NCBI GenBank assembly: GCA_023128695.1
Contig: JAGMDK010000160.1
Span: 1 to 33,032 of the forward strand
DNA: 33,032 nucleotides
Direction: 5' to 3'
Source: Phycisphaerae bacterium
GTDB taxonomy: Bacteria; Planctomycetota; Phycisphaerae; UBA1845; Fen-1342
Of the stretch, positions 1,127-31,613 are shown piece by piece (within the stretch, counting starts at the first letter, position 1; the number at the start of each line of letters is the position of its first letter). The notes beneath the pieces were generated by a model, which was not told the origin of the DNA, searched no databases, and was given only the letters and a program-made list of their open reading frames with translations. Made by a program: the position numbers and the translations under genes.

Positions 1127-1152
1127 GGCCGACGGCCGAGGCGGCTATCGCC

Positions 1153-11565: not shown

Positions 11566-12690
11566 ATGAGCTCGGACTCGGGCCAGCCAGATAGGCACCA
11601 TCAATTCACCATCTACGAGTCGGAACTCCGAGTCTTGGCCGGCGTCTCCGCCTCGTGGGGCGACGTGGAGGCCGGTGGTGACCTCTCCGGACTCCTGTCG
11701 CACGGTGGTCATGCGGTCGTGCTGCTGGCCCTACCTCCCGGTCCGAACGCCCGGCATGAGGCCCTTCACTTCGCCCAGGACCTGGCGCATTTTCGCAGGA
11801 TTGCCAACATCATCGATCGCCGGTTCGGTCTACAGATCGTGGGCGGCCATCATTCCCACCATTCGCTAGGGATAGATCAGCCCAGCGGTGGCGATGTGGC
11901 GCAGGTACGCTCGATCACCAGCAAGAACAACATCCGGCGCTGGGTGGAGGTGATCACTACGCATCATCCGGTCGCGCCGGAAGGCCCGGGCCGAGGGAGG
12001 TGTACACGCGGCCGCCGCAAGGCTCGGCAAGGAGACTCCTGCAAGGACGGCGTCAACATACGAATCAACTCGTTCTCGTATCCGCATGCTCCTTCAGGCC
12101 GATACTGTAGATGTCCCATCAGGGTCATCAAGGGCATAAGCCCCATCCGGCAGGCGCTGGCCAGCGAGGCAGTGTTCAGTCCTGAGGAGTTGGGGGCCGC
12201 ATTCTGTGATTTCCCCTTGGAGCGAATCTCCTTCGACGACGTTGACTCTCGCACGAGAGACTGTGCCGCCGAGGTGTGCCTGCCCGGTGAGATTCAGGAA
12301 CAACTCGAAGAACTACCTTCCGACGTTGCCGAACTCGTTCGCGTCCGCCTGGAGGATCACCTCATCGTCATCGTGTTACCGCTGGATGGCGACACAAGGG
12401 CGCTGGTTGCTTATCATCGCAGGCGACCACATCGGATACGCTTCGTTTTTCTGTCGGGTGCGACAGGGGGCCCTCCAGAGGACGTCACCCACGAGATTCT
12501 CGATGAAGGGACGACCGCCCGTCTCGTCTGCGTTCGGCAGTGTATCCTTTCGCTGTATCACGGTCATGATTCTGGTGCCTCCATGGTTGAGACCGACTCT
12601 CAGCTCCACTGCCCCAGGAGCACACTGCCAAAGATAGCCTCGCGGCGTGGCCGCCCCCGAAGTAAGCAACTTGTCCCCGAGGAGGAGTAG
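11566..12690 (+). CDS. JAB/JAMM metalloprotease of a bacterial ubiquitin-like system
   Basis: The 374-residue protein carries a full JAMM zinc site in the first 120 residues: Glu35 in VEAGGDLSGL, His96-x-His98 in GGHHSHHSLGIDQPSGGD, Ser107 and Asp110. The eight-residue gap between the second His and the Ser is what I expect for the bacterial subfamily with the pattern HSHHxLGxxxPSGGD. Such enzymes remove ubiquitin-like tags or mature the C-terminus of a modifier. The C-terminal 250 residues contain a further alpha/beta region (for example EDHLIVIVLPLDGDTRALVAYH) and a basic tail with GRPRSK. I chose the ATG at 11566 because GGGAG lies 8 nt upstream; the frame is open to a TTG at 11533. The stop is three bases before the E2-like ATG, so the two are one transcript. 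Confidence 0.9.
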   Translation: MSSDSGQPDRHHQFTIYESELRVLAGVSASWGDVEAGGDLSGLLSHGGHAVVLLALPPGPNARHEALHFAQDLAHFRRIANIIDRRFGLQIVGGHHSHHSLGIDQPSGGDVAQVRSITSKNNIRRWVEVITTHHPVAPEGPGRGRCTRGRRKARQGDSCKDGVNIRINSFSYPHAPSGRYCRCPIRVIKGISPIRQALASEAVFSPEELGAAFCDFPLERISFDDVDSRTRDCAAEVCLPGEIQEQLEELPSDVAELVRVRLEDHLIVIVLPLDGDTRALVAYHRRRPHRIRFVFLSGATGGPPEDVTHEILDEGTTARLVCVRQCILSLYHGHDSGASMVETDSQLHCPRSTLPKIASRRGRPRSKQLVPEEE

Positions 12691-12693
12691 GCA

Positions 12694-13125
12694 ATGTGGA
12701 CATCTACACAACGACAACGTCTTGCATTTGAGCGGGCACTCCTGGCGAGCAAGATGCCGCAGTTCAGCTTTTGCGATCCGTTCGGTGACACATATGTATC
12801 CGGCGTGGCTACCACCAATTCCGGTAGCTCATACCTCCTGAAGCTCGAGCTGCCACCAGCGTATCCGTACGAAGAGCCGGACCTATACATCACCAGTCCG
12901 CACACGCTGTACCGATATGGGGGAGTCGGTACCATCAATTACGTTGGCACGTCACATGATTTCCACGTTTACAACAATCACGGTGGATGCGTGAAGATCT
13001 GCCACTTCGAGGAGTGGGATGCATCGAGAACCTGCCTTCTGGTCTTGCTCAAGGGGCATCTCTGGTTAGAGGCATATCACGCGCACTTGCGAACGGGCCG
13101 CGATCTTGCGGAGTTTCTGTGTTGA
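12694..13125 (+). CDS. E2 ubiquitin-conjugating-enzyme-like protein
   Basis: The 143-residue protein has an E2/UBC fold pattern: a beta meander with SSYLLKLELPPAYPYEEPDL (residues 45-64), then SHDFHVYNNHGGCVKICHFE and EWDASRTCLLVLLKGHLWLEAYHAHLRTG. The position of Cys103 in KICHFEEW matches the active-site Cys of bacterial E2-like families with the pattern C-x-x-H-P-x-x-W; Cys99 is a second candidate. It would accept an activated modifier from the E1 and pass it to a target. The start ATG follows GGAGGAG inside the JAB stop region by only three bases. No RING-type E3 is visible in the window, as is usual for bacterial systems. Confidence 0.87.
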   Translation: MWTSTQRQRLAFERALLASKMPQFSFCDPFGDTYVSGVATTNSGSSYLLKLELPPAYPYEEPDLYITSPHTLYRYGGVGTINYVGTSHDFHVYNNHGGCVKICHFEEWDASRTCLLVLLKGHLWLEAYHAHLRTGRDLAEFLC

Positions 13126-13154
13126 CCCGAGTTGATATTGAGAAGGAGTGTGCC

Positions 13155-13352
13155 ATGTGGAACGAAGAACAGAGCGTACATGAAATCATGCGAGATATCC
13201 AAGAGGGCGATAACATTGCTACCGGACTCAAATACGATCCGCAAACCAAGACAATTCGCCATGTGAACACCTACGATGACCCCGACCGCGGCATCGTGGT
13301 AACACCACACGACATGGAGCATTTTGGCGCGTGCGCGGGATGGATCCTATGA
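13155..13352 (+). CDS. 65-residue protein between E2 and E1, function unknown
   Basis: This short gene has a strong AAGGAG site six bases before its ATG, and its stop overlaps the E1 start as ATGA, so it is real and co-translated. The product (MWNEEQSVHEIMRDIQEGDN at the start, ending CAGWIL) is acidic, with a predicted helix, then a beta-hairpin-like stretch around TGLKYDPQTKTIRHV. The position between E2 and E1 is where a ubiquitin-like modifier is often encoded, but there is no C-terminal Gly-Gly and the length is at the lower limit for a beta-grasp fold. It may be an E1/E2 partner, a divergent modifier or an antitoxin-like small protein. I do not recognise the family. Confidence 0.8.
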   Translation: MWNEEQSVHEIMRDIQEGDNIATGLKYDPQTKTIRHVNTYDDPDRGIVVTPHDMEHFGACAGWIL

Positions 13353-14629
13353 TCGTCATCTCCAGCGACATTGTGGAAAGCGCCAAAGGCTGTGAAGCGT
13401 CGCGCGACTTGTTCCTGGGAGCCCGGGACAACGGCGACGTGTACAACGCGCTGATGAACGAGGATGGTCCGGGCGCCGTGCCTGGCACCCTGCATGTGTC
13501 CGAGTGTGACGCTACCGTGCCGGTCCAGACGATCGGCAAGCCAGCCGACCGGGTCAGGGTAATCGCCTTCCGGTCACCGGTGGCCGATGACGGATTACCT
13601 GCTGGGCCCACCGGTGCGGCCGGCGTTCGGCTTCAGGGATTCGTGCTCCGTGACGGCGGTTGGCAGGAGTCGCCGGTGCTGTGCGTTCCGGTGAAGCAGG
13701 AGTTACACTCGCGCATCAGCGGCCTCCTCGAGACGGATGTCCTCAAGGATAAGTGCGTGTTCGAAGGCGGTCTGGGCAGCGGAGGCGCACCGGCCATTAT
13801 GGAGTTGGCGAAGGCGGGGGTCGGGCGCTTCTTGCTGATGGACCACGACCGCCTTGAGGTTGCCAACATCACCCGACACATTGCGGGCCTCGCCGACGTA
13901 GGGCGCTACAAGACGAAAGTCATGGCCGAGTTGATTCGCGGAAAGAACCCGGACGCTGACGTTCAAGCTTGGGAAACGAAGATCTGCTGGGACAGCATCG
14001 AGCACGTGCGACAATGTGTGCGGACGGCTGACCTCGTACTCTGCGGCACGGATGAACCGGTCAGTCGGAATATCCTCAACAGTGTATGTGTTGAGGAAGA
14101 CACGCCTCTGATCATGGCCGGTGCGTTTCGCCGTGCTTATGGCGGCCAAGTGCTTCGGGTCCGCCCTCACCGATCGCCTTGTTACCAGTGCTTCGTCATG
14201 TCTCTGCCCGATCAAGCTCGTGATCACGAGATCGCAACGGCTGACCAGGCACAGCGGATAGCCTACTCAGACCGCGATGTACCAATCGAGCCGGGTCTGT
14301 CGACGGATATCGCCCCGATCAGCCAGATGGTGGCCAAGCTCGGCGTGCAGGAACTACTCCAAGATGAGCCCACGACAATGCGGTCGCTTGACGAGGATCT
14401 CGTGGCGCCGTGGTACATCTGGATCAATCGCCGCGAACAGGGAACGGAATATGAGAAGCTCCCGCCCTTGGGATTTAGCCTGGATGGCTTTCGCATCCTC
14501 CGATGGTACGGCATCGAACTCGAGCGCAGGCCAGATTGCCCTTGTTGCGGCGATTTCATTGGCCACGTGGCCCACGAGGAGGGGATCGAGGTTGCGGCGG
14601 AAGACCTGGCGGCGTTCGAGGCTAGGTAG
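13349..14629 (+). CDS. ThiF/E1-like ubiquitin-activating enzyme
   Basis: The 426-residue protein has an E1 adenylation domain from about residue 130. The nucleotide loop is GLGSGG (141-146), followed by LLMDHDRLEVANITRH (163-177) with the acidic and Asn/Arg residues typical of MoeB/ThiF/E1 enzymes, and DLVLCGTDEPVSR. Two zinc-binding pairs, CYQC (278-281) and CPCC (397-400), bracket the C-terminal part. The first 115 residues form a separate alpha/beta region, possibly a degenerate JAB-like domain, with RVIAFRSPVADDG and GFVLRDGGWQESPVL. It would adenylate the C-terminus of a modifier and hand it to the E2-like protein. I chose the ATG at 13349 because it overlaps the preceding stop as ATGA; ATG 13340 and GTG 13331 are in-frame alternatives. 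Confidence 0.92.
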   Translation: MIVISSDIVESAKGCEASRDLFLGARDNGDVYNALMNEDGPGAVPGTLHVSECDATVPVQTIGKPADRVRVIAFRSPVADDGLPAGPTGAAGVRLQGFVLRDGGWQESPVLCVPVKQELHSRISGLLETDVLKDKCVFEGGLGSGGAPAIMELAKAGVGRFLLMDHDRLEVANITRHIAGLADVGRYKTKVMAELIRGKNPDADVQAWETKICWDSIEHVRQCVRTADLVLCGTDEPVSRNILNSVCVEEDTPLIMAGAFRRAYGGQVLRVRPHRSPCYQCFVMSLPDQARDHEIATADQAQRIAYSDRDVPIEPGLSTDIAPISQMVAKLGVQELLQDEPTTMRSLDEDLVAPWYIWINRREQGTEYEKLPPLGFSLDGFRILRWYGIELERRPDCPCCGDFIGHVAHEEGIEVAAEDLAAFEAR

Positions 14630-14638
14630 GAACGTACG

Positions 14639-15982
14639 ATGAGTGAGTGGCGCAAGACATTTCGTGTACGCGAACTTCCCGACGCGGAGTACGTGCCGTA
14701 CCGGGTGGTGGCGGGCGGGGATGTGTGCGCCGCCATTTCACGCGACTGTGAACATTGGTTGCGCATCCTGGCGCAACTGCCTCCGGCCACCGCCGCCGCA
14801 GAGGTGCGTTTCGTTTACCAACCATCGGAACGTCGTGAAGCTCTTCAATCGCGTATACGCATCTACGTGAGGCTGTGGGCGCGCAGCGAATCGGTAGGCA
14901 GCTTACTGGAGTCGTTCGTCACGCGCGGACCGCTGGCTCGGTTCTACGAGCTTGTCGAGGAAAGCGAAGCCACAGTGCCCTGGAACCGCATGCGAGCTAT
15001 CTGCGACGTGGTTCGACGCGCCCAATTGGTACGTCCGCTGCACGGCCCCGAGTTTAACGCCAACATCCCCGAGTTCTACTACTCCATCGAGGCACTGGAG
15101 CCGAATGACGACAACGACTACTCGATGTTGGACCGTGTATTGGGCAACCTCACTGAATGCGTCGTCGTGTGCGTCGGTGTGGAGCCTGCGGACGTGTCGG
15201 AGGAGTTGGCAGCGCACACGGACTATTTGCGGCGGCTGGAGTCGGTCAACCGTCATTGGGATCAGGACGATGAGGAGGATCAAGCTGGGCTCGACTATGT
15301 TGGAGACGACTCGCCGCGGCCGTACACGTTCAGGAGCGGCCTAAGACCGCTGCGTCACAAGGATCCCCTTGCAGACAACATCCTGCGCCAGCAACAACGG
15401 TTCCATGACAGCCTGAGAACGGCGCACCTGTATTTCGGCGCCCGGGTCTTTGCGGAGTCGGGCGCGGTTGCCCGCATGGTGGGCTCGGTTCTGGGGGAGT
15501 CAGGTTTCTGCGACGGCAGCTATCGCCTCATCACAATCGAGCGCGGCGAACCCGGCTTCGACGACACCGTGGCGGCCGCCACGGGCGTGGGCGTGCATGC
15601 CATACCGGCTCAGGAACGACTCTGGGAGGGGAAGGACGCTCCGCGGTACGAGCAATTGCGTCGTCTCATTCACGTGGCCCCCGTAGAGGAACTGGCGGGG
15701 ATGTTTCGCCTGCCGGTTGCGGGTCACGCGTCGCCGTGCTGCATCAGGAAGAACACCGACCCCGTCCGGGATGCCGTGGACGACCTCATCGTCTTTGGGC
15801 GTGATCTGGAACCAAGCACCGGAGGCAAAACAGGCAGCTTGCCACGTGGTATTCGCTTCGATCTGCTCCTGAAGCACTGCTTCATCGCGGGAACCCCTGG
15901 CATGGGAAAGACCACCGCGATGATGCACCTGCTCCTGCAGTTGGCTGGCATCAACGTATTCGCAGGTGTGGAGGAGGATTAG
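14639..15982 (+). CDS. HerA-type ATPase, N-terminal half with Walker A
   Basis: The 447-residue product holds an N-terminal region of about 390 residues that I do not recognise, then the first strand and P-loop of a HerA/FtsK-type ATPase: CFIAGTPGMGKTTAMMHLLL with Lys424. The frame ends at TAG 15980-15982 just after the Walker A helix, so this half lacks Walker B, the sensor and the arginine finger. The next ORF is in the same frame and carries exactly those missing parts. HerA-type ATPases form hexameric rings that pump DNA, or in some conflict systems act with nucleases. The ATG follows AGGTAGGAA after the E1 stop. The two ORFs may make a two-chain ATPase, or the break may be bypassed in translation; see the separate finding. 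Confidence 0.85.
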   Translation: MSEWRKTFRVRELPDAEYVPYRVVAGGDVCAAISRDCEHWLRILAQLPPATAAAEVRFVYQPSERREALQSRIRIYVRLWARSESVGSLLESFVTRGPLARFYELVEESEATVPWNRMRAICDVVRRAQLVRPLHGPEFNANIPEFYYSIEALEPNDDNDYSMLDRVLGNLTECVVVCVGVEPADVSEELAAHTDYLRRLESVNRHWDQDDEEDQAGLDYVGDDSPRPYTFRSGLRPLRHKDPLADNILRQQQRFHDSLRTAHLYFGARVFAESGAVARMVGSVLGESGFCDGSYRLITIERGEPGFDDTVAAATGVGVHAIPAQERLWEGKDAPRYEQLRRLIHVAPVEELAGMFRLPVAGHASPCCIRKNTDPVRDAVDDLIVFGRDLEPSTGGKTGSLPRGIRFDLLLKHCFIAGTPGMGKTTAMMHLLLQLAGINVFAGVEED

Positions 15983-16006
15983 ATGGGGAATCACCGGCGA
16001 GAATCC
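15950..16006 (+). other. 57-bp in-frame insert carrying SD, stop and start inside a hairpin
   Basis: Removing these 57 bp (from one ATC codon to the next) would give LLLQLAG-IPFMVIETAKTEYR, the normal continuation of HerA-type ATPases. The insert contains AGGAGG (15972-15977), TAG (15980-15982) and ATG (15983-15985). TTCGCAGGTG (15959-15968) and CACCGGCGAG (15992-16001) can pair with one mismatch and one wobble, leaving a 23-nt loop that displays all three signals. Confidence 0.6.
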
Positions 16007-17476
16007 ATCCCATTCATGGTAATCGAAACGGCCAAGACCGAGTACCGCGCGCTCAAGATGCTCAAGGGAGATTCACGCAAGGCCGTGCGCCGTTTCGGGT
16101 CCGAACTTGAGGTGTACACAATCGGCGTGGAAACCGTGTCGCCGTTGCGGCTGAACCCGTTCGAGATTCCGCCTGGTAGTTCGCTTGAAGAGCATATCGA
16201 GACATTGGTCGTTTGTTTCGAAGCGAGCATGCCTTTGTTTGGGCCGCTGCCAGCGTTGCTACGAGAAGGTCTCGATCGCATGTACGAGAAGTACCCGGAC
16301 CCAAACGACCCGCCGGTCATGGCGGATCTGATGGCTGCCGTAGAGTGCGTCCTGGCAGAGAAACACTACTCAGACCGAATCGGCCCGGATATCCGGGCAG
16401 CGCTGGACGTGCGCCTGGGAATCCTTACACACGGCCTGATCGGCAGGATCTTCCAGTGCAAGCGGAGCATTCCGAGCATCCCGCATCTGATGGCGACCCA
16501 GTCCATTCACGAACTCGACCGACTGCCACGCGAGGCGGCATCGCTATATACGTTCTTCCTGCTCACCTGGATACGTCAGTATGTCAAATCGCTCGAACCG
16601 CAGCAGCGTGTACGGTTTGTCATCGTCATCGAAGAAGCCCACAACCTGGTCGGGCGTTCTACAGACACGACACCAGGTGAGGATGCCGTGGACACCAAGG
16701 CGCACGCCGCGGAGTTTGTATGCCGGATGTTGGCCGAACTCCGCGCCTTGGGGGTGGCACTCGTGATCGTCGACCAGTTGCCATCGGCGGTGGCCCCGGA
16801 GGTCGTGAAGAACACTGGGTCGAAACTCACGTTTCGCCTGGTGGCCAATCAGGATCGCACCGATCTGGGCGGGGCGATGCTCTTTGGTGAAACCGAGTTT
16901 GAAGAGGTCGCGCGACTACGGACCGGGGAGGCCTTCCTCTTCACCGAGGGGTACTACAGCCCTCGCAGGATCAAGGCGTCGAACCTCCATGCGGTTTTGA
17001 ACTTGACAACACCGCCGGTCAACGAACGGCTTGTTCCGTACATTCAGGACGATGTGTGGTTCCGGGAAGCCGCCATCTGTCGGCGGTCGGCCGAGCTGGC
17101 CGATCTGCGCAGGCATATTGATCGGTTTGATTCCGTTAGGCTTGAAATCGTGCGGCGGGTCGCACAGCTCATTGCGCGTCGCGTTCACATTCTCGCCACA
17201 GTCAGGCAAGCTGAATCTCGACGAACGCAGCTGTTGCGGCTGCAACGCGAGGCCGAGGGTTCCCGGCGGAAGCTCGTCGCCGCATTCGAGATGATGCAAC
17301 GACGACCCTACCGGATGCTCTTGGGGCCGGAGAACGTGCTGGAGCGTGATGACGGGGGCATCGAAGAGCTACGCGGCGTGCTCGAGAGACGCTTCGAGAA
17401 CGTCATCAAACCGGATACGCAAGCGTGCATAAAGAAAATCGATTCGCTGATCGCCGAATGCAGGCAAAGCAAATAA
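15983..17476 (+). CDS. HerA-type ATPase, C-terminal half with Walker B
   Basis: The 497-residue product continues the ATPase of the preceding ORF in the same frame. It begins MGNHRRES and then IPFMVIETAKTEYRALKML, the second strand of HerA-type ATPases, followed by SPLRLNPFEIP, Walker B VIVIEEAHN (213-221), the sensor-like VALVIVDQLPS (258-268) and EAFLFTEGYYSPRRI. A long helical, probably coiled-coil tail (about residues 355-497) follows. It has no P-loop of its own. Its ATG directly follows the TAG of the first half and has an ideal AGGAGG five bases upstream, so separate translation by restart is plausible. The conserved motifs on both sides of the junction argue against simple decay. Confidence 0.87.
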   Translation: MGNHRRESIPFMVIETAKTEYRALKMLKGDSRKAVRRFGSELEVYTIGVETVSPLRLNPFEIPPGSSLEEHIETLVVCFEASMPLFGPLPALLREGLDRMYEKYPDPNDPPVMADLMAAVECVLAEKHYSDRIGPDIRAALDVRLGILTHGLIGRIFQCKRSIPSIPHLMATQSIHELDRLPREAASLYTFFLLTWIRQYVKSLEPQQRVRFVIVIEEAHNLVGRSTDTTPGEDAVDTKAHAAEFVCRMLAELRALGVALVIVDQLPSAVAPEVVKNTGSKLTFRLVANQDRTDLGGAMLFGETEFEEVARLRTGEAFLFTEGYYSPRRIKASNLHAVLNLTTPPVNERLVPYIQDDVWFREAAICRRSAELADLRRHIDRFDSVRLEIVRRVAQLIARRVHILATVRQAESRRTQLLRLQREAEGSRRKLVAAFEMMQRRPYRMLLGPENVLERDDGGIEELRGVLERRFENVIKPDTQACIKKIDSLIAECRQSK

Positions 17477-17488
17477 GGAGATAGGGCG

Positions 17489-18001
17489 ATGGGTAGAAGC
17501 CGGGATGTGCCGAGTCGGCATGAGGTGGAAGAAAAAGTCGACCATACACGAGATACCATGAAGGAGAAGGAATCCGACATGGAGGAGTCCGTCTCGGACA
17601 TCGAGACGATCAGAGGCACGCTCGAGTCCTTGGATTTCAGCGGCACCATGGAAGGAAGCGAAGAGGTTGAAGCCTCCATCAACCAGGCTGACGACGTGAC
17701 CGTGGACGAATTCGACCGGCAGGATGGCGAGTTGGACGACCTTCAGGAGAAGAGCACCGAGTACGAGGGCGAGTTGCAGGAACGCTCTGAGACCGGTGAG
17801 GCCGACCTCGGGAAGCTGTCTGATGCCAGCGGGCAGATCGAGACTCCGGAGGCAGTCAATGAGTTGGTTCGCGCCAAGGAGGCTGCGCTTCGGGATATCG
17901 AGTTCCTGCAGGGCCAGGAAGAGCGCGCCCGTGACGCCCAGGAAGAAAGTGACCGAATCCAAAACGGGCAGCGAAACCGAGCCAGAGCCGGAGGGAGGTA
18001 G
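17489..18001 (+). CDS. Acidic coiled-coil protein, function unknown
   Basis: The 170-residue protein is very rich in Glu, Asp and Ser with heptad-like spacing, for example HEVEEKVDHTRDTMKEKESD near the N-terminus and LQEKSTEYEGELQERSETGE in the middle. It is probably an extended coiled coil and ends in a basic tail. There is no signal peptide or membrane segment. It follows the ATPase by 12 bp with AAGGAG upstream, and its own last codons (GGAGGGAGG) serve as the Shine-Dalgarno site of the next gene. It may tether or regulate the ATPase, whose C-terminus is also helical (inference). I do not recognise a family. Confidence 0.8.
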   Translation: MGRSRDVPSRHEVEEKVDHTRDTMKEKESDMEESVSDIETIRGTLESLDFSGTMEGSEEVEASINQADDVTVDEFDRQDGELDDLQEKSTEYEGELQERSETGEADLGKLSDASGQIETPEAVNELVRAKEAALRDIEFLQGQEERARDAQEESDRIQNGQRNRARAGGR

Positions 18002-18005
18002 GTCG

Positions 18006-18632: not shown

Positions 18633-20523
18633 ATCGTCCATGTTTGATGCGACAGACCCTGCGCTGGATCAACCGCTGCGCATGTACCTCGGCCGGGGGC
18701 ACAAGACCCCCGGGGTCTCGGTGTACGAACCTGTTTCGGGCGGCCTACACGACGTGCTTAACTTGCAGGCCACCGAGAGCGTGTACGCCCTTGTGGCAGA
18801 GGATGCTAACAACACCGCCGTGGTCGGGACAAAAGCGGGGCTGCTGCACTTCGCCCAGCACGTGACTGCTGGAGATTCGGGTGCATGGCAGGTGAACAGG
18901 AGTGTCGTCCACGGTGCACCCATACTGTCGCTCTGCTGGATTGGTGCCCCGCATGTGGTGGTCAGTGACACTGAAGGACGCTGCTATGTTTGGAATTGCA
19001 ATACGAAAGAGCCTCCACAGGCATTGCCGACGCGGCGCGAAGCCATTTGCGCGCTAGTGGCACGCGATCAGACTCACCTCATGGGCCTCTCGACCTCCGG
19101 GGAGTTGTTGACCTGGCACTTGCCAACGAGGCAGCTAACGGGATTGGAACACGGGCCGCCTCCGCCGGCAATCAGCGCCCTAGCCAAGCTTACGTGGTGG
19201 CCGGCTGCCGAAGCGATGGTCTATCCCGCTCGGGGCGGTCAACTCGTTACCTGGCGGCCGCTGGATGACGAGGTTCATACAGTCGACGCGCATGACGGCG
19301 AGTTCTACGCCATCGTTCCGTTGGAGGTCGAATTGCTGACGATCGGTCTCCGGGACAGATGCGCAAGACTGTGGCGCCCCCGTGGGTCCGTAGCCCGGTT
19401 CAAAGGGAAGGCGCCCGCCGGGATCACATCCGCGGCACTGGTGGGTTCGAATCCGGCGCGGATCATTGCGATCAACGAACGGGGCGAGGCGTGTGTGTGC
19501 CGCCTCGTTGAATGCCGATTGCACGTGGAAAGCCGGTTGCCGGGTGGCAATTATCGCGTTGTCGTCGGTCCCACCTGGGATGAGCTCAACAGAGATGAAA
19601 CACAGCGGCGCCGCGTGGAGGTGGAGGGGTTAGCCAATGCGATCCGGGAGCGCATGGCGTGCAACGAGTTGGACGAGGTTGGCATACTACATGAGCGTCT
19701 GGCCGCCCTGGGCTACCAGCACGTTTCGCTAGCGCTCCGTGCAGCCCAAGCCCGAGACGAAGGCGATCTGCTATCCGAGTTGAAGGCCTACGCGGCGCTG
19801 GTGCACGGGCTTCCACCCCATGCCGCCGAGTCGCGGGAATCGTTTGCGCGTTACGCCGGTCTGCTCGAGGCCACGTGGCAGTTCGAAGAGGCCCTGTTAT
19901 TCAGCCAGCGGGCCGAGGCCCTTGGTGCTGATCACGATGCCCCTGCTTCCCGGAGGCTGTCCACTGAATATGCAAAGATTCTGCGAGGCGGCGATTGGGT
20001 CGTGGAACCAGACCTCCCCCTCGTGTCGCTGATCGACGCGGCGACGGCAGCCGACAAGCCCTTCCAGGGTTTGTTCGTCTTGCGCACCCTTGGAGAATCG
20101 CGCAGCCGGGGTGCTCAACTGACTCCGCAGGCAATCGTCCAGAAGTACGATCAGGAACGCAACAAGGCTGGCCGCGAGCCGTTGCCGCGGGCACGGCATC
20201 GCACCGTCTGCTGGCTGACCCGAAATCGACGTGAGCACTTTGACCTGGTCTTGATTGAAGCTGGCCCGAAGGCGGGATTCGCGGGCCTTGTGTTCTGTGT
20301 GAAGGTGGTTAACGCCGGCCTGCAGACGGTCATGGTGCCGGCCGTGCTCTTCAAGGCCCCGAGTCGCAAGGCGACCACGTCGGCCGTACGGCACAACCAA
20401 CGTGTTCATCAACGCCTGAGCAATGTCAGTAGTGCAGCCCGAGCGAACGGGTGGCTGGACCGCGTAGACCGAGCGATGAGATGCGCCCTGCGCAGGTTGC
20501 TTACCGAAGAGCTGGTCCGGTGA
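18622..20523 (+). CDS. WD40-like propeller protein with helical repeat C-terminus
   Basis: The 633-residue protein has an N-terminal half (about residues 30-310) that reads as a degenerate seven-bladed propeller, with blade ends such as CYVWNCNT, LLTWHLPTRQL, LVTWRPLDDE and ARLWRPRG. The middle (about 330-480) is helical and TPR-like (LHERLAALGYQHVSLALRAA and FEEALLFSQRAEALG). The last 150 residues are a separate alpha/beta region with RTVCWLTRNRREHFDLVLIE and GLVFCVKVVNAGLQTVMVPA, which I do not recognise. It probably scaffolds protein partners for the kinase encoded next. I chose the ATG at 18622, overlapping the previous stop; GTG 18610 is an alternative. No membrane segment is visible. 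Confidence 0.8.
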   Translation: MPDKSSMFDATDPALDQPLRMYLGRGHKTPGVSVYEPVSGGLHDVLNLQATESVYALVAEDANNTAVVGTKAGLLHFAQHVTAGDSGAWQVNRSVVHGAPILSLCWIGAPHVVVSDTEGRCYVWNCNTKEPPQALPTRREAICALVARDQTHLMGLSTSGELLTWHLPTRQLTGLEHGPPPPAISALAKLTWWPAAEAMVYPARGGQLVTWRPLDDEVHTVDAHDGEFYAIVPLEVELLTIGLRDRCARLWRPRGSVARFKGKAPAGITSAALVGSNPARIIAINERGEACVCRLVECRLHVESRLPGGNYRVVVGPTWDELNRDETQRRRVEVEGLANAIRERMACNELDEVGILHERLAALGYQHVSLALRAAQARDEGDLLSELKAYAALVHGLPPHAAESRESFARYAGLLEATWQFEEALLFSQRAEALGADHDAPASRRLSTEYAKILRGGDWVVEPDLPLVSLIDAATAADKPFQGLFVLRTLGESRSRGAQLTPQAIVQKYDQERNKAGREPLPRARHRTVCWLTRNRREHFDLVLIEAGPKAGFAGLVFCVKVVNAGLQTVMVPAVLFKAPSRKATTSAVRHNQRVHQRLSNVSSAARANGWLDRVDRAMRCALRRLLTEELVR

Positions 20524-20546
20524 TCGGCATGGCGAGAGTCTGAATA

Positions 20547-22163
20547 ATGTCACGCAAGTATCCGAAGTGCCGCACATCCGTCAAACCCCGCAGCGGGAAA
20601 CGTGCAGCCACCAGCCAACCGGTGCACGGTGGCGATCCGCCGCGTCATTTCGTATCCGGGTATCCGGCTGCAAGAGGTCCACGGCTCGCACTGGAGCCTG
20701 GCACACTGTTGATGGACCGGTTCACGGTGAAGCAGCGCCTCGGCGATGGATGTCATGGAACAGTGTACTTGGCGGACGACGCTCTACGCGGCGAGGACGT
20801 GGCGATCAAAGTAGTGGAAGTCGGTCATTGCGCTTCGGAGCTAACGGACGCGCGGCTCTCCGGCGAGATCGCATTGCACGGCAAGCTTGCTGACTTCCGG
20901 TATGTACTGCGCATGCACGACGTCCACGTCCTAACGTGGGGTAGCAGTCGGTTGCTCTTGCTGTCGATGGAGTATGCCGACGGAGGGACATTTCGGGACT
21001 GGCTACGCCAGAACCAGGCCAACCTGGAAGTCCGCCACACCGCAGGGATAGAGTACTTCCAGCAGGTGTGTGAAGGAGTCGCATCAGCCCATGACGCCGG
21101 AATCGTACATCGGGATCTCAAGCCCGAGAACATGTTGTTGGTCGGCAACGTCTTGAAAGCGGCGGACTTCGGCGCTGCCGGGTTGGCGGACGTGGCCCAA
21201 GTCCCCCCCATCGCTGATCCAGGTGATTCATCACCTTGTTTGGGCACGCCGACGTACATGAGTCCCGAGCAGTTCACGGCCACCTACGCGGACGAGGTCG
21301 ACCACCGAGCCGACATTTATGCGCTTGGCCTGGTTCTCTTTGAGTTGGTGCATCCCAAGTGTCGACCGCCGTTCACCGGAACATTTCAGCGTCTGCGTGA
21401 CCGGCACGTCAACGTGGCGCCCCACACGCTACCGGATGCTCCGGAAAACGTGGCCCGCGTCGTGGCCCGCTGTTTGAAGAAGAACCCAGCTGACAGGTAT
21501 GCCAACGTCTGGACCCTTCTGGACGACTTGGAAGGGCGCGGTCAAGCCGACGATGTCGGATACAGCCAACAAGAATCGTCATGGAAACGAGCCCGCTCGT
21601 GCAAGTCGCAGGGCGATTTCCGTGCGGCTCTGCGGCATTGCCAGGACGTTCTCGAAACTGCGCCAGACCACTTTGAAGCCAAGGGAATGTTGGCAGATTT
21701 CGAGATGCGCCGGGAGCAGGCACAGCAACTGTACGCGACTGCAGAGCGGGACATGAATAGCCATACTCTCGCTGAGTCGGTGTTGCTGGTGCAAGAGGCC
21801 ATCCAGACCTTCCCCAACCATCCGGCAGGGCGGCTGGTGCAAGCCCGTCTGGCTGCCAGAGCTCGCGAGTACCGTGAGCATGTGGAGAGGGGCGCGGAAG
21901 CCGTGCACCAGGGTCACTGGGAGGCCGGCTTGGAGCACTTACAACAGGCCAAGGCGCTGAGTCCGAACGCACCGGGCTTGGCCCAGGCAATTGAGTGTGT
22001 CACGCAAACAACGCGGCACATCGAGGAAACGCGTGGATACATCCGTGATGCCATCAGCAACAGAGATCGTCGCTGGGCACTATCCCTGGCCCGTTCAGTG
22101 GATCGGTACGTCGCTGAAGCACGTAGACAGATCAGCAGCAGCTATGACAGGGACGTGACATGA
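20547..22163 (+). CDS. Soluble Ser/Thr protein kinase with C-terminal TPR-like repeats
   Basis: The 538-residue protein has a Hanks-type kinase domain (about residues 58-335). The glycine loop is GDGCHGTVY (66-74), the ATP Lys is Lys88 in VAIKVV, the catalytic loop is HRDLKPEN (188-195) and DFG is at 207-209, followed by GTPTYMSPEQF and HRADIYALGLVLFEL, so it should be active. A Cys- and Arg-rich start (KYPKCRTSVKP) may be a remnant of the zinc ribbon often found at the start of such kinases. The last 200 residues are TPR-like helices. Unlike the kinase at 7.3-11.2 kb it has no membrane span, so it acts in the cytosol. It overlaps the following gene by 4 bp and lies in the middle of the conjugation gene train, making E1, ATPase or propeller proteins possible substrates (inference). 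Confidence 0.92.
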   Translation: MSRKYPKCRTSVKPRSGKRAATSQPVHGGDPPRHFVSGYPAARGPRLALEPGTLLMDRFTVKQRLGDGCHGTVYLADDALRGEDVAIKVVEVGHCASELTDARLSGEIALHGKLADFRYVLRMHDVHVLTWGSSRLLLLSMEYADGGTFRDWLRQNQANLEVRHTAGIEYFQQVCEGVASAHDAGIVHRDLKPENMLLVGNVLKAADFGAAGLADVAQVPPIADPGDSSPCLGTPTYMSPEQFTATYADEVDHRADIYALGLVLFELVHPKCRPPFTGTFQRLRDRHVNVAPHTLPDAPENVARVVARCLKKNPADRYANVWTLLDDLEGRGQADDVGYSQQESSWKRARSCKSQGDFRAALRHCQDVLETAPDHFEAKGMLADFEMRREQAQQLYATAERDMNSHTLAESVLLVQEAIQTFPNHPAGRLVQARLAARAREYREHVERGAEAVHQGHWEAGLEHLQQAKALSPNAPGLAQAIECVTQTTRHIEETRGYIRDAISNRDRRWALSLARSVDRYVAEARRQISSSYDRDVT

Positions 22164-23344
22164 GCACAGCGTCACTCGGAATGTCGACTGCCCAAACCCG
22201 CCATGGACGATCCTTCGGCATGTGTTCGCTCGTTGACATGGTCACACGGATCGTGCGCCAAGGCGATCAGCAGGCGCTGCACGAGTTACACGAACATCGT
22301 ACGGTGTTTCAATTCGGCGCTGACCGGCGACTACTGTTTGTCGGATTCGTCAACCGGCTTCATGGCAGCTTTGTGGCGCGCGAATGGTGCGGCGGTAGTG
22401 CGGCGGTACTCGATGCGGCCCACGGGCTGACGGTAGACAAGTTCAGTCGTTTGCCGGTCCAGGCCGCCGGGGGAGCATCACGGCAATCCCAAGACCGATC
22501 GTTGAAACAAGGAGGCGTCGATTGTCGCTACTACTTCAGTGCTTTCCTCGATTACGTTGAGCGTAGGACGGATTCCTCGGCATCGGGTTCTCGGATCAAA
22601 CAGGAGGCTGTGGCTGCCCGGCTGTTGCAGACACACGTGTACAGGCACTTTCTGCTGTCGTGCCTCGAATGCGCACGGCGGGCTCGACAACTCGTCAAGC
22701 GGTACGCATGGAAACTCAACGGCGTAGCTATCAACCTGTGGTTCCCAACAGAGATGTCCGGCCGAGAGATCACCGCCTGGCTGTGTGCCAACGTGAATGA
22801 TCCGGATCCGTCCCGGCCGGGAGAACGAGAGCGCGTGCAGGCGATTGTCGACGGGCAGATGGTCAGACGAACGTTTGTGTCACTCAGCGACGTTGGCGAG
22901 TTGGCGAGTTGCTCCGACACGGCGCACCCCACTCTACCTTGGTCACTGCTACACGGGATGTCGGTCGAAGGACTGGCGGAGCAGGTAGCCGAGGAGAAGG
23001 CTGACAACCTCTCGCTGCAACGCCCGGCGATCCAAGCCTTGGGCCGTGAAACGCTCCGACAGATGATCCTGCGGATCTTCCACGAGCTCAGTTCTGGGGA
23101 GTACCGTGACGGGCAGGTTGCGGAGGCTTTCGGGTTGAGCAAATCCACCTTGTCGCGGTTCGCCGGCAGCCGCTGGGCTGAGCGGCACAAGGCTCCCAAT
23201 GGCTGGGCGATCCCCGACCTCTGGCGGAACACCGCTCGGACACTGGCCAGCCGACCGTCCTTCGTAGCGGCCGCCCAAGAAGCCGGCGTTTGGCATCGAG
23301 TCCGCGCTGTGCATCCCGATCGCCCGCAGGAGGACGAGCAATGA
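22160..23344 (+). CDS. Protein of unknown function with C-terminal helix-turn-helix
   Basis: The 394-residue protein is coupled to the kinase by an ATGA overlap at its start and to the next gene by another at its end. The N-terminal 290 residues include VTRIVRQGDQQALHELHEHR, reminiscent of the first helices of sigma-like proteins, but the rest does not fit a sigma factor. Residues of about 300-350 contain RQMILRIFHELSSGEYRDGQ followed by VAEAFGLSKSTLSRFAGSRW, a clear helix-turn-helix with the second helix in KSTLSRFAG. It may be a DNA-binding regulator of the island whose activity is set by the adjacent kinase. I do not recognise the family name. Confidence 0.78.
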   Translation: MSTASLGMSTAQTRHGRSFGMCSLVDMVTRIVRQGDQQALHELHEHRTVFQFGADRRLLFVGFVNRLHGSFVAREWCGGSAAVLDAAHGLTVDKFSRLPVQAAGGASRQSQDRSLKQGGVDCRYYFSAFLDYVERRTDSSASGSRIKQEAVAARLLQTHVYRHFLLSCLECARRARQLVKRYAWKLNGVAINLWFPTEMSGREITAWLCANVNDPDPSRPGERERVQAIVDGQMVRRTFVSLSDVGELASCSDTAHPTLPWSLLHGMSVEGLAEQVAEEKADNLSLQRPAIQALGRETLRQMILRIFHELSSGEYRDGQVAEAFGLSKSTLSRFAGSRWAERHKAPNGWAIPDLWRNTARTLASRPSFVAAAQEAGVWHRVRAVHPDRPQEDEQ

Positions 23345-24045
23345 ACAACGACCTCTATTTCGTGCCCATCATCGCCCAAGCCATGCAGGAGACGCACCCC
23401 GAACACGCCTTACGGCAGGCGTTCGTCGATATCACTGCGCTCGGCCGTCAGCCGGCGTACGCACGGGGATTCCAGCAATTCCAGGAATTCATGGCCGTGA
23501 GCGTGGACTACTTCAGGACGGTGGACGCGTTGGCCACGCGTGTGCGTATGGCCGAACTGGTGGCGGAGACAGCTGACACCGTCCAACTGGATCAAGATCC
23601 GGCGCTTGATCAGTTCCGGCGTGACCCGCGATGGCGAGCGGAATATGAACGGGTAATCGCGGAGATCGCGAAGTTCGGTGGGAAGCGCAGAGTCGAGCTG
23701 ACACTGATGGACAGCGCAGGCGTGGCAGTCGGTTCGATCCGACTTGCCGGGAGTGCGGGCAGCGGGGCGATCAGCAGGATCGCTGCCGGCACGTACTCGC
23801 TGACACTCGACACCGGTTGGGTTCTCTGGGAGGACACGCTGACGGAAGGCGATCTCGTTTGGGCGGCTGCGTTTCCCGGACGCCCACTAAAGCTGGCGGC
23901 TGACACCGGCGAGGCCACCGAGGAACCTACCAAGAAGATTGAGCTGCTCGACGGAGAGCTAACGCTGTGCGTGTTCCCGGGAGTTGAGACAGGCCGGATC
24001 GCGATCGAGTGGCGCGCTCCGGGTGGTGATGAAGACGATGGATGA
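23341..24045 (+). CDS. Beta-rich protein with a Gly-Gly tail, function unknown
   Basis: The 234-residue protein has a helical first half (MNNDLYFVPIIAQAMQETHP and onward) and a beta-rich second half beginning KRRVELTLMDSAGVAVGSIR and continuing GTYSLTLDTGWVLWEDTLTE, DLVWAAAFPGRPLKLAADTG and LLDGELTLCVFPGVETGRIA. It ends IEWRAPGGDEDDG, that is, two glycines followed by a five-residue acidic tail. A neighbouring JAB protease could expose such a Gly-Gly end, so this is one candidate for the missing modifier; that is inference only. The start ATG overlaps the preceding stop as ATGA and its end overlaps the next gene by 8 bp. Confidence 0.8.
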   Translation: MNNDLYFVPIIAQAMQETHPEHALRQAFVDITALGRQPAYARGFQQFQEFMAVSVDYFRTVDALATRVRMAELVAETADTVQLDQDPALDQFRRDPRWRAEYERVIAEIAKFGGKRRVELTLMDSAGVAVGSIRLAGSAGSGAISRIAAGTYSLTLDTGWVLWEDTLTEGDLVWAAAFPGRPLKLAADTGEATEEPTKKIELLDGELTLCVFPGVETGRIAIEWRAPGGDEDDG

Positions 24046-25717
24046 TGCAACGGCGATTGGTCGAGCCAGGACAGCGCTGGTCTTCGGCCAGGGAGATGAC
24101 GCCCAAGCTGTTACTACTGCCGTGGTTGCCAGCGTGCGTGATGACACCTCGCCGAAGCGCGTTCGTGTTCCCGGCCCGGTTGTCTTCGTAAGCCCGGTCA
24201 TCCGGCACGTCACAGAAGTAATTCTGCCGATCGTCGACCGAATCACCACGTTACTCGGCTTACCTCGGCTGAAGTTCACGCTCACTGCCGCCAACCTCGG
24301 CGCAGCCTCAACAGCCAATCTCGGATTCGAAGTGTCGGGCTTCTCGGCCGACTTGCCGGTTCTCTTGGCGCTGCTGTCCGCCTCCCTGCAGATGCCAATA
24401 CCCCTGGACATGGTCGCGACAGGCCACGTGGCCTCGAAAGCAGGGGACTTCGCAGCGGTTGAGGCGATTCCGGCCAAGCTGGCTGCCTGTTCCGGAGACC
24501 CCACGGTCCGGCGGTTTATCTACCCCGCACCGCCCAGCGACCGGTCACTTGAGACATTGGCGCCATCCGAATGGCAGCGTATCCAAACCGCGGTAGCGGA
24601 GGCTTCCGAGAAGATCCGAACGATCGTCGTAGGCAACGTCGCCGATTTGGTGCAAAAGATCTTCGATGACGACATGATCGTCATGGCGAGCTTGAGAGGC
24701 GGGTTTTATGTAGCGTCCGTTCCATCCGAAGACCATGCCGACGCCGTCGGGCGGGCCGCGCATCACCTGTCTCAGGGAAACGAGTGTCGTTTTTGGACCG
24801 CACTGGGGCGGTACCTGATGGCCGGTGACAGCGGCGCGGCGCATACGCTTCTCAAGGCATGGGCAGCGTACCACGTTGACAGGCAGAAGTACCCGGCGGG
24901 CTTTGGCAGCAGGCTGCTGCAACTGGTACGGTCCCTGCCTCCAGCGGTACGTCGGTTGCGAACCACGTTCCCGCTGCTGTCAGCCAGGGATTGCATTGCC
25001 TTGAGCCAGTTCGCGGGCGACTCCGACCATGAAGATATCAGCCCACTCTATGACGCGGCCTTGGGCAAAAACGCCAAGCCGCCGCCCGTATCGCCGACCA
25101 AACAAGACGCGGAGGGTGTACCCGATGGTGATACGGCTACCAAGACACTCGAGGTCGTCCTGGAGGCGATCGATCCGTTGCACGTGGCTGAGCAGGTTGC
25201 GGTTCCCATCGACTCCGCTCGTATTGGCTATACACTCGATTCAACCGTGGCGAGTTCCTACGACGAGTTCAGCGATGTGATCACCTCTTTCTACCTTCAT
25301 GTCCTGCGGCGTACCGGTGTAGTCGCGGGCTCCGTCATTCCTCAGTCGGTCGCCGCCGCCGCCTTGGATCTCCTCGACCGTGCGTTCACTCGCATCGGAG
25401 GCTCTCCCGCAGCCTTCGCTGAAGCCCGCGACGCAACACGCGGTGGGCTCCGTTACGTGTTGGACCTCATGGCAGATCGCTACAAATACGAAGAGCAAGC
25501 GAAGTATGTACGCGGTGTTCTCGCGGAAGCGCTGGACCCGCTCGATTGGAACATGAAGGTGGCCTTCATGCGCGCGCTGCTGAAGCGGCTTGCCCCGCAC
25601 CTGCCGTCCGAGATCCGATCGCAGCCACCCGCACGCTTTGCAAAGAACTGGGAGAAAATCGTTCAGGCCTACACGCAGTCATTCGGCCAGATACAGTCGC
25701 TGCTGCGTACGCTTTGA
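24038..25717 (+). CDS. Lon-type Ser/Lys peptidase without AAA+ domain, fused to a helical domain
   Basis: The 559-residue protein has an S16-type proteolytic domain near residues 45-165. The Ser of the dyad is Ser103 in VSGFSADLPVLLALLSASLQ, matching the Lon pattern GPSAG, and the Lys is Lys147 in AIPAKLAA, matching the Lon pattern GGLKEKLLAA. The 44-residue gap is close to the 43 residues of E. coli Lon (Ser679-Lys722), and MVATGHVASKAG matches the intervening MTGEITLRG segment. There is no Walker A, so it lacks its own unfoldase. The last 190 residues (about 370-559) are a helical domain repeated in three neighbouring genes. The start is uncertain: ATG 24038 or 24029, both overlapping the previous gene. 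It may cleave a conjugated or phosphorylated target, perhaps fed by an ATPase of the island (inference). Confidence 0.8.
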   Translation: MDDATAIGRARTALVFGQGDDAQAVTTAVVASVRDDTSPKRVRVPGPVVFVSPVIRHVTEVILPIVDRITTLLGLPRLKFTLTAANLGAASTANLGFEVSGFSADLPVLLALLSASLQMPIPLDMVATGHVASKAGDFAAVEAIPAKLAACSGDPTVRRFIYPAPPSDRSLETLAPSEWQRIQTAVAEASEKIRTIVVGNVADLVQKIFDDDMIVMASLRGGFYVASVPSEDHADAVGRAAHHLSQGNECRFWTALGRYLMAGDSGAAHTLLKAWAAYHVDRQKYPAGFGSRLLQLVRSLPPAVRRLRTTFPLLSARDCIALSQFAGDSDHEDISPLYDAALGKNAKPPPVSPTKQDAEGVPDGDTATKTLEVVLEAIDPLHVAEQVAVPIDSARIGYTLDSTVASSYDEFSDVITSFYLHVLRRTGVVAGSVIPQSVAAAALDLLDRAFTRIGGSPAAFAEARDATRGGLRYVLDLMADRYKYEEQAKYVRGVLAEALDPLDWNMKVAFMRALLKRLAPHLPSEIRSQPPARFAKNWEKIVQAYTQSFGQIQSLLRTL

Positions 25718-25732
25718 GAGGAGTCCTCTGTC

Positions 25733-26314
25733 ATGGTGTCCATCAACAGCTTACTGTCCGCGTTGGACGAGCGAGTAATGGCACAACGGATCGGCATCCC
25801 GCACGACGAGGCCCGAATGCGGTATACTCTCCGTTCCAATACGGTCTCCAGCTTCGACGAGTTCAGCAATATCCTCGCTGACTACTACAACTACCACTTC
25901 ACAACCTGCGTGTCGCGAGGAGGCGCGCTGTCGCATGCTGAAGCTGCTGGCCGTGCGAAAGAGCTGATAGAACAAGAATACCGTCGCCGCAATGGAGATA
26001 TCGCCTCGGCTTACCAAGATGCTCATGACGGAGTGAACGGGGGGATGCGTTTGGTGCTCGATTCGATTGCCGAAGGCCTGAAAACGGAGTCAGTCGAACG
26101 CTACATTCGTGAAGCGTTCGATCGACACGTGGCTCCGACCGATTGGCCGCAGAAAGTCTCGATCATCCGCCAGTTCATCGCCCAATGTGGGCAACCTCTC
26201 GCATCCTCGATCTCGGCACACCAGCCGGAGCGCTATGCTCAGGATTACCGCGATCTCATTCGTGCGTACGTCACGGGTCTGCAGCGCACGTCGTCGATCT
26301 TCCGCCGGCTATAG
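25733..26314 (+). CDS. Helical-domain protein, paralogue of the Lon-like C-terminus (copy 2)
   Basis: The 193-residue protein is a stand-alone copy of the C-terminal domain of the preceding gene. Matching segments are ALDERVMAQRIGIPHDEARM with AIDPLHVAEQVAVPIDSARI, YTLRSNTVSSFDEFS with YTLDSTVASSYDEFS, and APTDWPQKVSIIRQFIAQ with DPLDWNMKVAFMRALLKR, and both end in a basic R-L motif. It is entirely helical, without signal peptide or membrane span. GAGAGGAG lies before the ATG. It probably binds the same partner as the Lon-like protein, or oligomerises with it (inference). Family not recognised. Confidence 0.82.
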   Translation: MVSINSLLSALDERVMAQRIGIPHDEARMRYTLRSNTVSSFDEFSNILADYYNYHFTTCVSRGGALSHAEAAGRAKELIEQEYRRRNGDIASAYQDAHDGVNGGMRLVLDSIAEGLKTESVERYIREAFDRHVAPTDWPQKVSIIRQFIAQCGQPLASSISAHQPERYAQDYRDLIRAYVTGLQRTSSIFRRL

Positions 26315-26327
26315 GGAGCCTGATTCA

Positions 26328-26906
26328 ATGATGGGACTCGACCAACTGCTCGAGAGCATCGATCCGCAAAGGACCTTGGACGAGACCGATGCCCGCGTCG
26401 ACGAAGCGGTCAACTCGTTCCCCCTCAGGAATGCAGAGCTGAAGCAATGGGACGAGTTCAGATTGCACGTGATCAACTTCATGCGCCACACCGAGGCCGC
26501 CGTGCTTCACGTTCGCACGATGCCCGGCGCCTCGCTGGATTTCGAGTGGGGACGCTGTGTCCGCCTACTCATCCACGAGTACGGGCGAAACGGCGAGAAA
26601 GCAGCCTTCGAGATCGCCCGCACTGGGAAAGAAGGCGGTCTCTACGCCATACTGAAGAAGCTCGCCAGGCGGATCGCACAGCGATACGGCGAAAACGAGG
26701 TCGTCGCGAAAATCAGCACGTGGTGGGGTACCCTCTCCGTTGACGAGCAGTTCGCCGCCACCGACGAGTATCTCGAGAGGTATGGCCATCTCTTGCCCTC
26801 CGAGCTCACCGAAGGCACCGCCGTTCGAATCCGGGCCAACTTACCCAAAGCGCTGAAAGAGCATCCGCGGATGATCCAGCGCATGCGCCGGCTGGGGCGA
26901 AGCTGA
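26328..26906 (+). CDS. Helical-domain protein, paralogue (copy 3)
   Basis: The 192-residue protein shares the layout of the two preceding genes: an N-terminal LLESIDPQRTLDETDARVDE segment, then SFPLRNAELKQWDEFRLHVI, a central helical part, and a C-terminal DEYLERYGHLLPSELTEGTA followed by a basic end. It is more diverged from copies 1 and 2 and closer to copy 4 (29446-30048) in the RVDEAVNSFP motif. The start is ATG 26328 after GGGAG; a second ATG follows at once. It is the last gene before the first promoter-like motif. Confidence 0.8.
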   Translation: MMGLDQLLESIDPQRTLDETDARVDEAVNSFPLRNAELKQWDEFRLHVINFMRHTEAAVLHVRTMPGASLDFEWGRCVRLLIHEYGRNGEKAAFEIARTGKEGGLYAILKKLARRIAQRYGENEVVAKISTWWGTLSVDEQFAATDEYLERYGHLLPSELTEGTAVRIRANLPKALKEHPRMIQRMRRLGRS

Positions 26907-26933: not shown

Positions 26934-26971
26934 CTGAAACGGCGGACGCCGGCCAGCCGCTTTATGGTCGA
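26934..26971 (+). promoter_or_regulatory. ECF-like promoter motif, copy A
   Basis: CTGAAACGGC, 11 bp, AGCCGCT, 7 bp, CGA. It lies in the 93-bp gap before the VirD4/TraG-like ATPase; the CGA is 29 bp before its ATG. TGAAAC with a 17-nt spacer to CGCT fits the -35/-10 layout of ECF sigma promoters. Confidence 0.65.
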
Positions 26972-26999
26972 TAGCGGTTGGCTGGAACGGAGAATCTAC

Positions 27000-31523: not shown

Positions 31524-31613
31524 ATGATAGCAGCGCGAACCAAGTGCCGTGCGCCTCCGTCCGGCGCCGCGATCAGAGCCGTCCGGAGGCTGCACTGGGT
31601 GACGACGAACACG

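Follow-up and report, generated by a model that had tools for sequence, protein, structure and literature searches.

The stretch of DNA analysed here (hereafter the window) is a single 33-kb contig, ending at position 33032, of the 4.47-Mb draft genome of a Phycisphaerae bacterium. It carries on its plus strand a train of about 16 genes that starts with a JAB/JAMM peptidase gene (position 11566) and whose last member is a primase gene (end at 32633). The genes follow each other in the order JAB–E2–E1–HerA–CC1–CC2–propeller–kinase–HTH–β-protein–Lon–rep2–rep3–TraG–rep4–primase (Table 1), where HTH stands for helix-turn-helix and rep for a helical domain, copies of which form the C-terminus of the Lon-like protein as well as rep2, rep3 and rep4. 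From JAB to rep4 (end at 30048), the distances between neighbouring genes range from −14 to +57 bp. An earlier reading of this DNA, made without database searches (the sequence-only reading), had placed JAB, E2 and E1 genes with their key residues, followed on one strand by the genes from HerA to Lon, at positions 11566–26906. All genes that it named were found on the plus strand with overlaps or short gaps; the span itself proved too short, as the train continues through the TraG-type ATPase, rep4 and the primase.

A search with an E1 profile across 84,980 species genomes yielded 27 loci. The complete order is collinear, on one strand and on single contigs, in six trains: the window, Phycisphaerae Bin_018 (G060, locus L032), a Desulfobacteraceae genome (DESULF, loci L031, L061–L063 and L072, contig of 434 kb), Planctomycetes GWF2_41_51 (GWF2, L034 and L064–L065), a genome labelled Lentisphaerae (LENTI, L035 and L066–L068) and G683a (L110–L111). 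Four of the six are Planctomycetota and one belongs to the Desulfobacteraceae; the Lentisphaerae label of the remaining one may be wrong because the bin has a size of 14.1 Mb, and in this train the β-protein and rep4 match weakly. Identities of the train proteins across loci mostly lie between 20 and 65%, and in G060 the whole series is present in the same order as in the window, with most genes 27–65% identical. Fragments from four more genomes agree with the train order, while in a seventh locus (G546, L103–L104) TraG, rep4 and primase form an inverted block located upstream. The TraG–rep4 segment runs counter to the adjacent genes in G546 (L104, 458–4736), G625 (L113–L114; L114, 11006–15275) and G054 (L012 and L146–L147; L012, 2600–6800). 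In the window, G060, DESULF and GWF2, neighbouring genes of the E1–rep3 series overlap or are separated by at most 23 bp, the looser junctions being rep3–TraG and the E2–E1 stretch, and in the latter three genomes the primase gene follows rep4 at a distance of 93–113 bp. Scans of the train for promoters and terminators returned no more sites than in shuffled sequence.

The genes of the train have also diverged together. Pairwise identities of E1 were correlated with those of the Lon-like protein (r = 0.79, 5/5040 permutations), the primase (r = 0.77, 5/5040), the TraG-type ATPase (r = 0.71, 19/5040) and the HerA-family ATPase (r = 0.70, 21/5040). Among 397 genomes of the window's class, 16 contained rep-domain matches, 13 of them strong, and full-length train HerA was found in 11, all of which (11/11) belong to the 13 with a strong match and carry rep2; the hypergeometric P-value of about 1e-19 for this co-occurrence is only indicative because the genomes are related. 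The train E1s form a single clade (support 84/94). The sequence-only reading had itself raised the possibility that homologues of the E1/E2/JAB set never co-occur with the downstream genes, and this did not hold: each E1 of the clade that could be placed on a contig is followed by train HerA, with Lon or rep2 further downstream in all cases in which the same contig, or another contig of that genome, extends so far. The conservation of an operon of about 16 genes over such large distances is a sign of strong selection on a seemingly undescribed machine.

In line with the sequence-only reading, the active-site residues of the conjugation genes and of the Lon-like protein are intact. The five JAB residues given in Table 1 are invariant in 8/8 train homologues; a Pfam scan of the JAB protein gave no match, and the PADLOC model recognised it. 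Cys103 of the E2-like protein is invariant in 9/9 train homologues, its Pfam matches being weak (RWD, 0.017; UQ_con, 0.12), and the E2 profile retrieved E2/RWD proteins from PDB at E-values of about 0.01–0.3. The four cysteines of the two CxxC pairs are invariant across the train E1s. The N-terminal domain of E1 is a separate open reading frame (ORF) of 65 aa in the window, G060, GWF2 and LENTI and is fused to E1 in three other trains (DESULF, L027 and L030) and in CBASS-type relatives such as an E1 of Bradyrhizobium (CBASS, cyclic oligonucleotide-based antiphage signalling system). This small ORF was considered as a ubiquitin-like modifier and rejected, since its relatives carry the same segment fused to the E1 N-terminus. 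CC1 was likewise rejected as a Pup-like modifier: its glycine-containing tail is not conserved (the G546 protein has no glycine there), and CC1 persists in trains without E1. No ubiquitin-like (beta-grasp) protein of the kind encoded in Bil and other Ubl operons was found at the train loci (a distant or unlinked one may have escaped detection), and a conserved C-terminal Gly/Ala is absent from every train protein family in the E1-positive loci.

Ser103 and Lys147 of the Lon-like protein are invariant in 14/14 homologues. Pfam returned no match for this protein; its family profile matched the solved Lon protease domain 1z0c (1.8e-9), and its structural model (pLDDT 82) matched the Lon fold 1xhk with a TM score of 0.73 on the target. 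A viral fold library gave ordinary Lon-type matches only. The chain has no AAA+ unfoldase, and the remainder is helical and includes the rep domain. With a mean pairwise identity of 59%, rep2 is the best conserved of the train genes. In most loci, the TraG-type ATPases carry at their C-terminus a conserved acidic YDxF-like sequence that resembles a tail for binding a partner. The kinase has Lys88, HRD188 and DFG207. For the HTH protein, a fold search with the AlphaFold model (pLDDT 73) gave no match. The Lon-like, rep2 and HTH proteins matched nothing in NCBIfam, PADLOC and PHROGs, and none of the rep-domain, CC1, CC2, HTH and β-proteins could be matched confidently to a family in the libraries searched.

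The HerA-type ATPase of the sequence-only reading is too divergent for a confident Pfam assignment. It was recovered as such by its family profile, which matched solved HerA proteins (8wiv, 1e-8), yet in the window it is encoded by two ORFs and not by one. Both lie in one frame, a TAG codon (15980–15982) being followed immediately by ATG, between Walker A and Walker B; a ribosome-binding-like GGAGGAGG is located at 15970–15977, five bases 5' of the ATG of the second ORF. Among seven aligned loci, the insertion of 16 residues and the stop codon at the split are found in the window only and are missing from the six homologues, in which HerA is a single ORF of about 900–940 aa. HerA is also split in the C63 copy of G683 (L143/L144) and in G647 C272 (L148), just before Walker A, so that fission of this gene recurs, at another point that divides the N-terminal part from the ATPase. 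Walker A and B and a HerA-type C-terminal domain are present, with a deviating Walker A in the Desulfobacteraceae copy, and PADLOC HerA models match the train protein; a search of genome contigs with HerA_C as the query gave no match. Several of the solved HerA proteins retrieved by the family profile belong to anti-phage HerA complexes.

At least four related trains keep the rest without E1/E2/JAB: G693 (L106–L107), G680 (L115–L116), a second copy in G683 (C63, L143–L144) and G720 (C135, L145). In G693 and G720, a kinase gene is placed directly upstream of HerA instead; in G680, an AAA+ gene and small uncharacterised genes lie between propeller and kinase; and in the G683 C63 copy, a small gene upstream of HerA looks, as judged by eye, related to the small genes of G680. 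In G625, an AAA+ gene is present and train HerA is missing. A kinase is kept in the trains without E1/E2/JAB except in G625, and the contig of G054 does not show it. An E1 of the train clade is absent throughout the draft genomes of G693, G680, G720 and G054. E1/E2/JAB are therefore common and not obligatory, and they look like an exchangeable front module.

Several features of the loci are those of integrated elements. An integrase gene lies beside the core, or a few genes further on, in DESULF, GWF2, G693, G680, G054, G060, G683a and G625 (recognised by sequence in all but DESULF), and a tRNA gene is found within about 100 bp of the integrase gene in DESULF (tRNA-Asp), GWF2 (tRNA-Lys) and G054 (tRNA-Pro). 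In some loci, the primase gene is followed by genes for an adenosylcobalamin-type ribonucleotide reductase, an HTH_17 protein and a tyrosine integrase; a ribonucleotide reductase-like gene, recognised by sequence, stands directly 3' of the primase gene in L065, L069, L070, L104, L107 and L116, and HTH_17 homologues occur elsewhere between the primase or reductase gene and the integrase gene or contig end. The window shows no integrase or tRNA site, its contig ending at 33032. On the other flank, G060 has a second HerA, Replic_Relax and ArdC, DESULF has a PD-(D/E)XK nuclease, and similar genes were recognised by sequence in G625, G680, G546 and G683. The E1, HerA and rep2 families were not found in IMG/VR, save one distant HerA-like match; a plasmid collection contained none of the train-specific proteins tested, only CBASS-type E1 relatives and generic ATPases, and a phage collection no Lon-like relative.

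Table 1. Genes of the train and its surroundings in the window.
Feature	Position	Strand	Evidence and remarks
ECF (extracytoplasmic function) sigma factor	6548..7180	+	Pfam Sigma70_ECF 2.6e-10; candidate regulator upstream of train
Ser/Thr kinase with WD40 propeller	7304..11158	+	Pkinase 1.4e-45, WD40; candidate upstream sensor, partner of the ECF gene
JAB/JAMM peptidase	11566..12690	+	E35, H96, H98, S107, D110; PADLOC JAB model 1e-8
E2-like protein, Cys103	12694..13125	+	invariant Cys103; weak RWD/UQ_con
Detached E1 N-terminal domain, 65 aa	13156..13352	+	fused to E1 in relatives
E1-like adenylyltransferase, ThiF fold	13340..14629	+	ThiF 1.3e-33; GLGSGG at residue 144; two CxxC pairs
HerA-family, N-terminal part up to Walker A	14639..15982	+	split gene, first half
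HerA-family, C-terminal part with Walker B	15983..17476	+	family profile vs solved HerA proteins
CC1, acidic coiled-coil protein	17489..18001	+	family of 11 homologues, 28–48% identical
CC2, helical protein, LPxVDEDGxSECPFAEELY motif	18006..18632	+	10 homologues
Beta-propeller (WD-like) protein	18622..20523	+	weak propeller Pfam matches; homologues in all full trains
Ser/Thr kinase with TPR repeats	20547..22163	+	Pkinase 1.5e-37, TPR
HTH-like protein (HTH protein)	22160..23344	+	FGLSKxTxSRFAG motif kept in 10 homologues
β-protein, small, beta-rich C-terminal half	23341..24045	+	10 homologues; beta-rich judged from sequence
Lon-type peptidase domain and rep domain	24038..25717	+	Ser103/Lys147; no AAA+ domain
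rep2, stand-alone rep domain	25733..26314	+	best-conserved train gene
rep3, divergent rep domain	26328..26906	+	weak match to rep domain of Lon-like protein (1e-4); collinear homologues
TraG/VirD4-type ATPase	26964..29459	+	TrwB_AAD_bind 24.1 bits vs cutoff 20.5
rep4, rep domain	29446..30048	+	rep2 profile match 4e-16
Archaeo-eukaryotic-type primase (AEP-TOTE)	31524..32633	+	Pfam 4.1e-29
HTH_17 (excisionase-like) protein	32649..32909	+	Pfam 9.1e-6

Upstream of the train lies an ECF sigma factor gene that we infer to be a member of the unit; ECF-like genes, identified by sequence recognition, are also found upstream of the train in G693, G680, L030, G546 and G683 C63. Together with the following kinase/WD40 gene it forms a gene pair (6548–11158) of a kind common in Planctomycetota, so that the membership of the kinase/WD40 gene in the unit is uncertain. 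The minus strand at 19–5704 encodes a type III restriction-like set, consisting of an N6/N4 methylase fragment, an AlbA_2/HATPase protein and a ResIII helicase-endonuclease. Two uncharacterised ORFs (30155–31283) between rep4 and the primase gene lack counterparts at the corresponding position of the other loci, and weak relatives of the second occur in the element regions of G060 and G054.

The gene order and its tight spacing, the intact active-site motifs, the co-divergence, the integrase and tRNA neighbourhood and the exchange of the front module suggest that a new family of integrative mobile elements has the train as its conserved core operon, encoding a regulated DNA-handling machine tuned by conjugation, a tentative reading with an inferred function to which we give close to an even chance. 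The HerA-family and TraG-type ATPases would, with the primase, make up the DNA-handling engine of the element, and through the rep-domain proteins the Lon-like peptidase may be tied to the TraG end. Input on the state of the cell could come from the propeller, the kinase and the ECF sigma factor encoded upstream, and cleavage of a regulator, possibly the HTH protein, by the Lon-like peptidase might turn the engine on or off. E1/E2/JAB may serve as a plug-in for the reversible attachment of some protein or C-terminus to a component of the machine, a place that would be taken in relatives by an AAA+ ATPase or by nothing. The more specific proposal, that the DNA-handling or transfer machine of the element is controlled by a reversible ubiquitin-like conjugation pathway dispensing with a classical ubiquitin-like modifier, acting with the kinase and the Lon-type peptidase, and that related elements swap this control module, strikes us as somewhat unlikely. 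The train would join ubiquitin-like conjugation, protein phosphorylation and regulated proteolysis in a single bacterial mobile element, and because the E1/E2/JAB module is swapped in nature, its role can be tested through the comparison of variants.

Several observations weigh against a mobile-element core tuned by conjugation. The inversion of TraG–rep4 in G546, G054 and G625 makes a transcript separate from the rest possible. Att repeats and a left end were searched for and not found, the DESULF contig containing no repeat of the tRNA end. Neither a relaxase nor a mating or membrane channel was identified among the genes scanned, in elements that were not delimited, and transfer is thus not established. 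Nothing indicates that the Lon-like domain cleaves any substrate. Moreover, the E1/E2/JAB cassette has its closest relatives among immune operons, which favours a role in defence. The train could accordingly be an element-borne system against phages or plasmids, in which HerA with CC1 and CC2 would sense or handle foreign DNA, kinase and propeller would relay the signal, the Lon-like protein would be the effector or its activator, and E1/E2/JAB would tune the response as in type II CBASS. We consider this possible, if doubtful. It fits the CD-NTase and Cap4-type nuclease genes, or TIR genes, next to the nearest E1/E2/JAB relatives, the matches of HerA to PADLOC HerA models and to solved proteins several of which are anti-phage complexes, and the type III restriction-like set in the window. 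However, cargo defence genes are usually swapped between elements, whereas the train core co-diverges with the TraG, rep and primase genes and accompanies them in every complete locus observed, and no recognisable effector nuclease, TIR, phospholipase or pore was found in the train.

The sequence-only reading had proposed a single system that activates, conjugates, phosphorylates and degrades. E1/E2/JAB and the HerA–kinase–Lon series are indeed conserved and co-diverge, but the former are not obligatory, and the degradation of conjugates by the Lon-like protein has to be regarded as speculation. The integrating-element context, for its part, was not discernible from the single contig behind that reading. 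An analogue of the ubiquitin–proteasome system, in which E1 and E2 tag a protein, the ATPase unfolds it and the Lon-like peptidase degrades it, appears improbable to us, even though all the enzyme classes are encoded together with conserved active-site motifs in co-diverging genes: the trains without E1/E2/JAB (at least four) keep HerA, kinase and Lon, or the neighbours of Lon where the contig ends, HerA and TraG are families of DNA translocases, an AAA+ domain is missing from the Lon-like protein, and neither a ubiquitin-like tag nor a conserved C-terminal Gly/Ala was found among the train proteins. Equally improbable is that E1/E2/JAB are an independent conjugation cassette which merely lies upstream of an unrelated element operon. 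Related cassettes do occur without the train, and the train without the cassette, but the single clade of train E1s, the spacing of −1 to +10 bp between E1 and HerA in the five full trains measured and the covariation of E1 identities with those of HerA, Lon and TraG argue against mere adjacency.

Among known systems, type II CBASS (Cap2 E1/E2, Cap3 JAB; PMC10097602) shares the active-site motifs of JAB, E2 and E1 with the train, in which E2 and E1 are separate genes and the downstream machinery is wholly different. The conjugated cGAS of CBASS follows a C-terminal Gly/Ala rule (PMC10097602), whereas the train families have no conserved Gly/Ala end. A motif search located a CD-NTase gene, its tail usually resembling LFGSxFG[AQV], beside 13 of the 20 listed related non-train cassettes (two of which are copies of a single plasmid locus) and in no train locus; the cassettes beside such a gene resemble a type II CBASS whose E2 and E1 are separate genes. 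A Bradyrhizobium plasmid locus (L025, 19093–24426) is CBASS-like, with separate JAB, E2 and E1 genes, a Cap4-type nuclease gene, a TIR gene and a CD-NTase gene that appears frameshifted, and in an Armatimonadetes metagenome-assembled genome (L033, 8239–12718) a related E1/E2/JAB cassette is followed by TIR-like genes, without a CD-NTase gene. The closest published idea is that of the FtsH-ternary MoxR-vWA conflict systems with Ubl conjugation (Kaur et al. 2020, PMC7159879), which occur in planctomycetes and deltaproteobacteria, have E1, E2, JAB, a propeller and a peptidase in common with the train and carry FtsH AAA+, MoxR-vWA, Ubl-E2 (ubiquitin-like–E2), RING and caspase-like genes. By their description, all components differ except E1/E2/JAB and the propeller, the train having HerA and TraG ATPases, a kinase, a Lon-like peptidase and a primase; MoxR, vWA and double FtsH had no Pfam match in the train, and in G680 an AAA+ gene stands in for E1/E2/JAB. 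Operons 6a–6e (Iyer et al. 2006, PMC1779556) are short, some contain a ubiquitin-like protein, and one type occurs in an integrative and conjugative element (ICE); type 6d shares with the train an E2 active-site cysteine followed by a downstream histidine, and none is described with HerA, a kinase or Lon.

The C-terminal half of the train ATPase is HerA-like, as in the HerA-SIR2 and HerA-DUF4297 anti-phage systems, but the train differs by a large family-specific N-terminal part, many extra genes and the lack of a SIR2 or DUF4297 partner. Membership in the MADS systems, suggested by mad6 and mad8 matches, was rejected, as the kinase matches are generic, the mad8 match is a weak ATPase match, and there is no match to the Lon-like, rep2 or HTH protein. 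Like Lon proteases (S16), the Lon-like protein has a Ser-Lys dyad in a Lon fold; unlike them, it has no AAA+ domain in the same chain. With ICEs the train loci share a tyrosine integrase by a tRNA gene, a TraG-type ATPase, Replic_Relax, ArdC and an excisionase-like HTH protein; they differ in that no relaxase or mating-pair channel was recognised and in that the train core has E1/E2/JAB, kinase and Lon-like genes. The expectation of the sequence-only reading that the train departs from the known short E1/E2/JAB operons is borne out to the extent that a published system of this make-up, with a kinase and Lon, was not found in the open-access literature, a description elsewhere being possible. 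We call the train categorically new in its system architecture, with parts that belong to known superfamilies.

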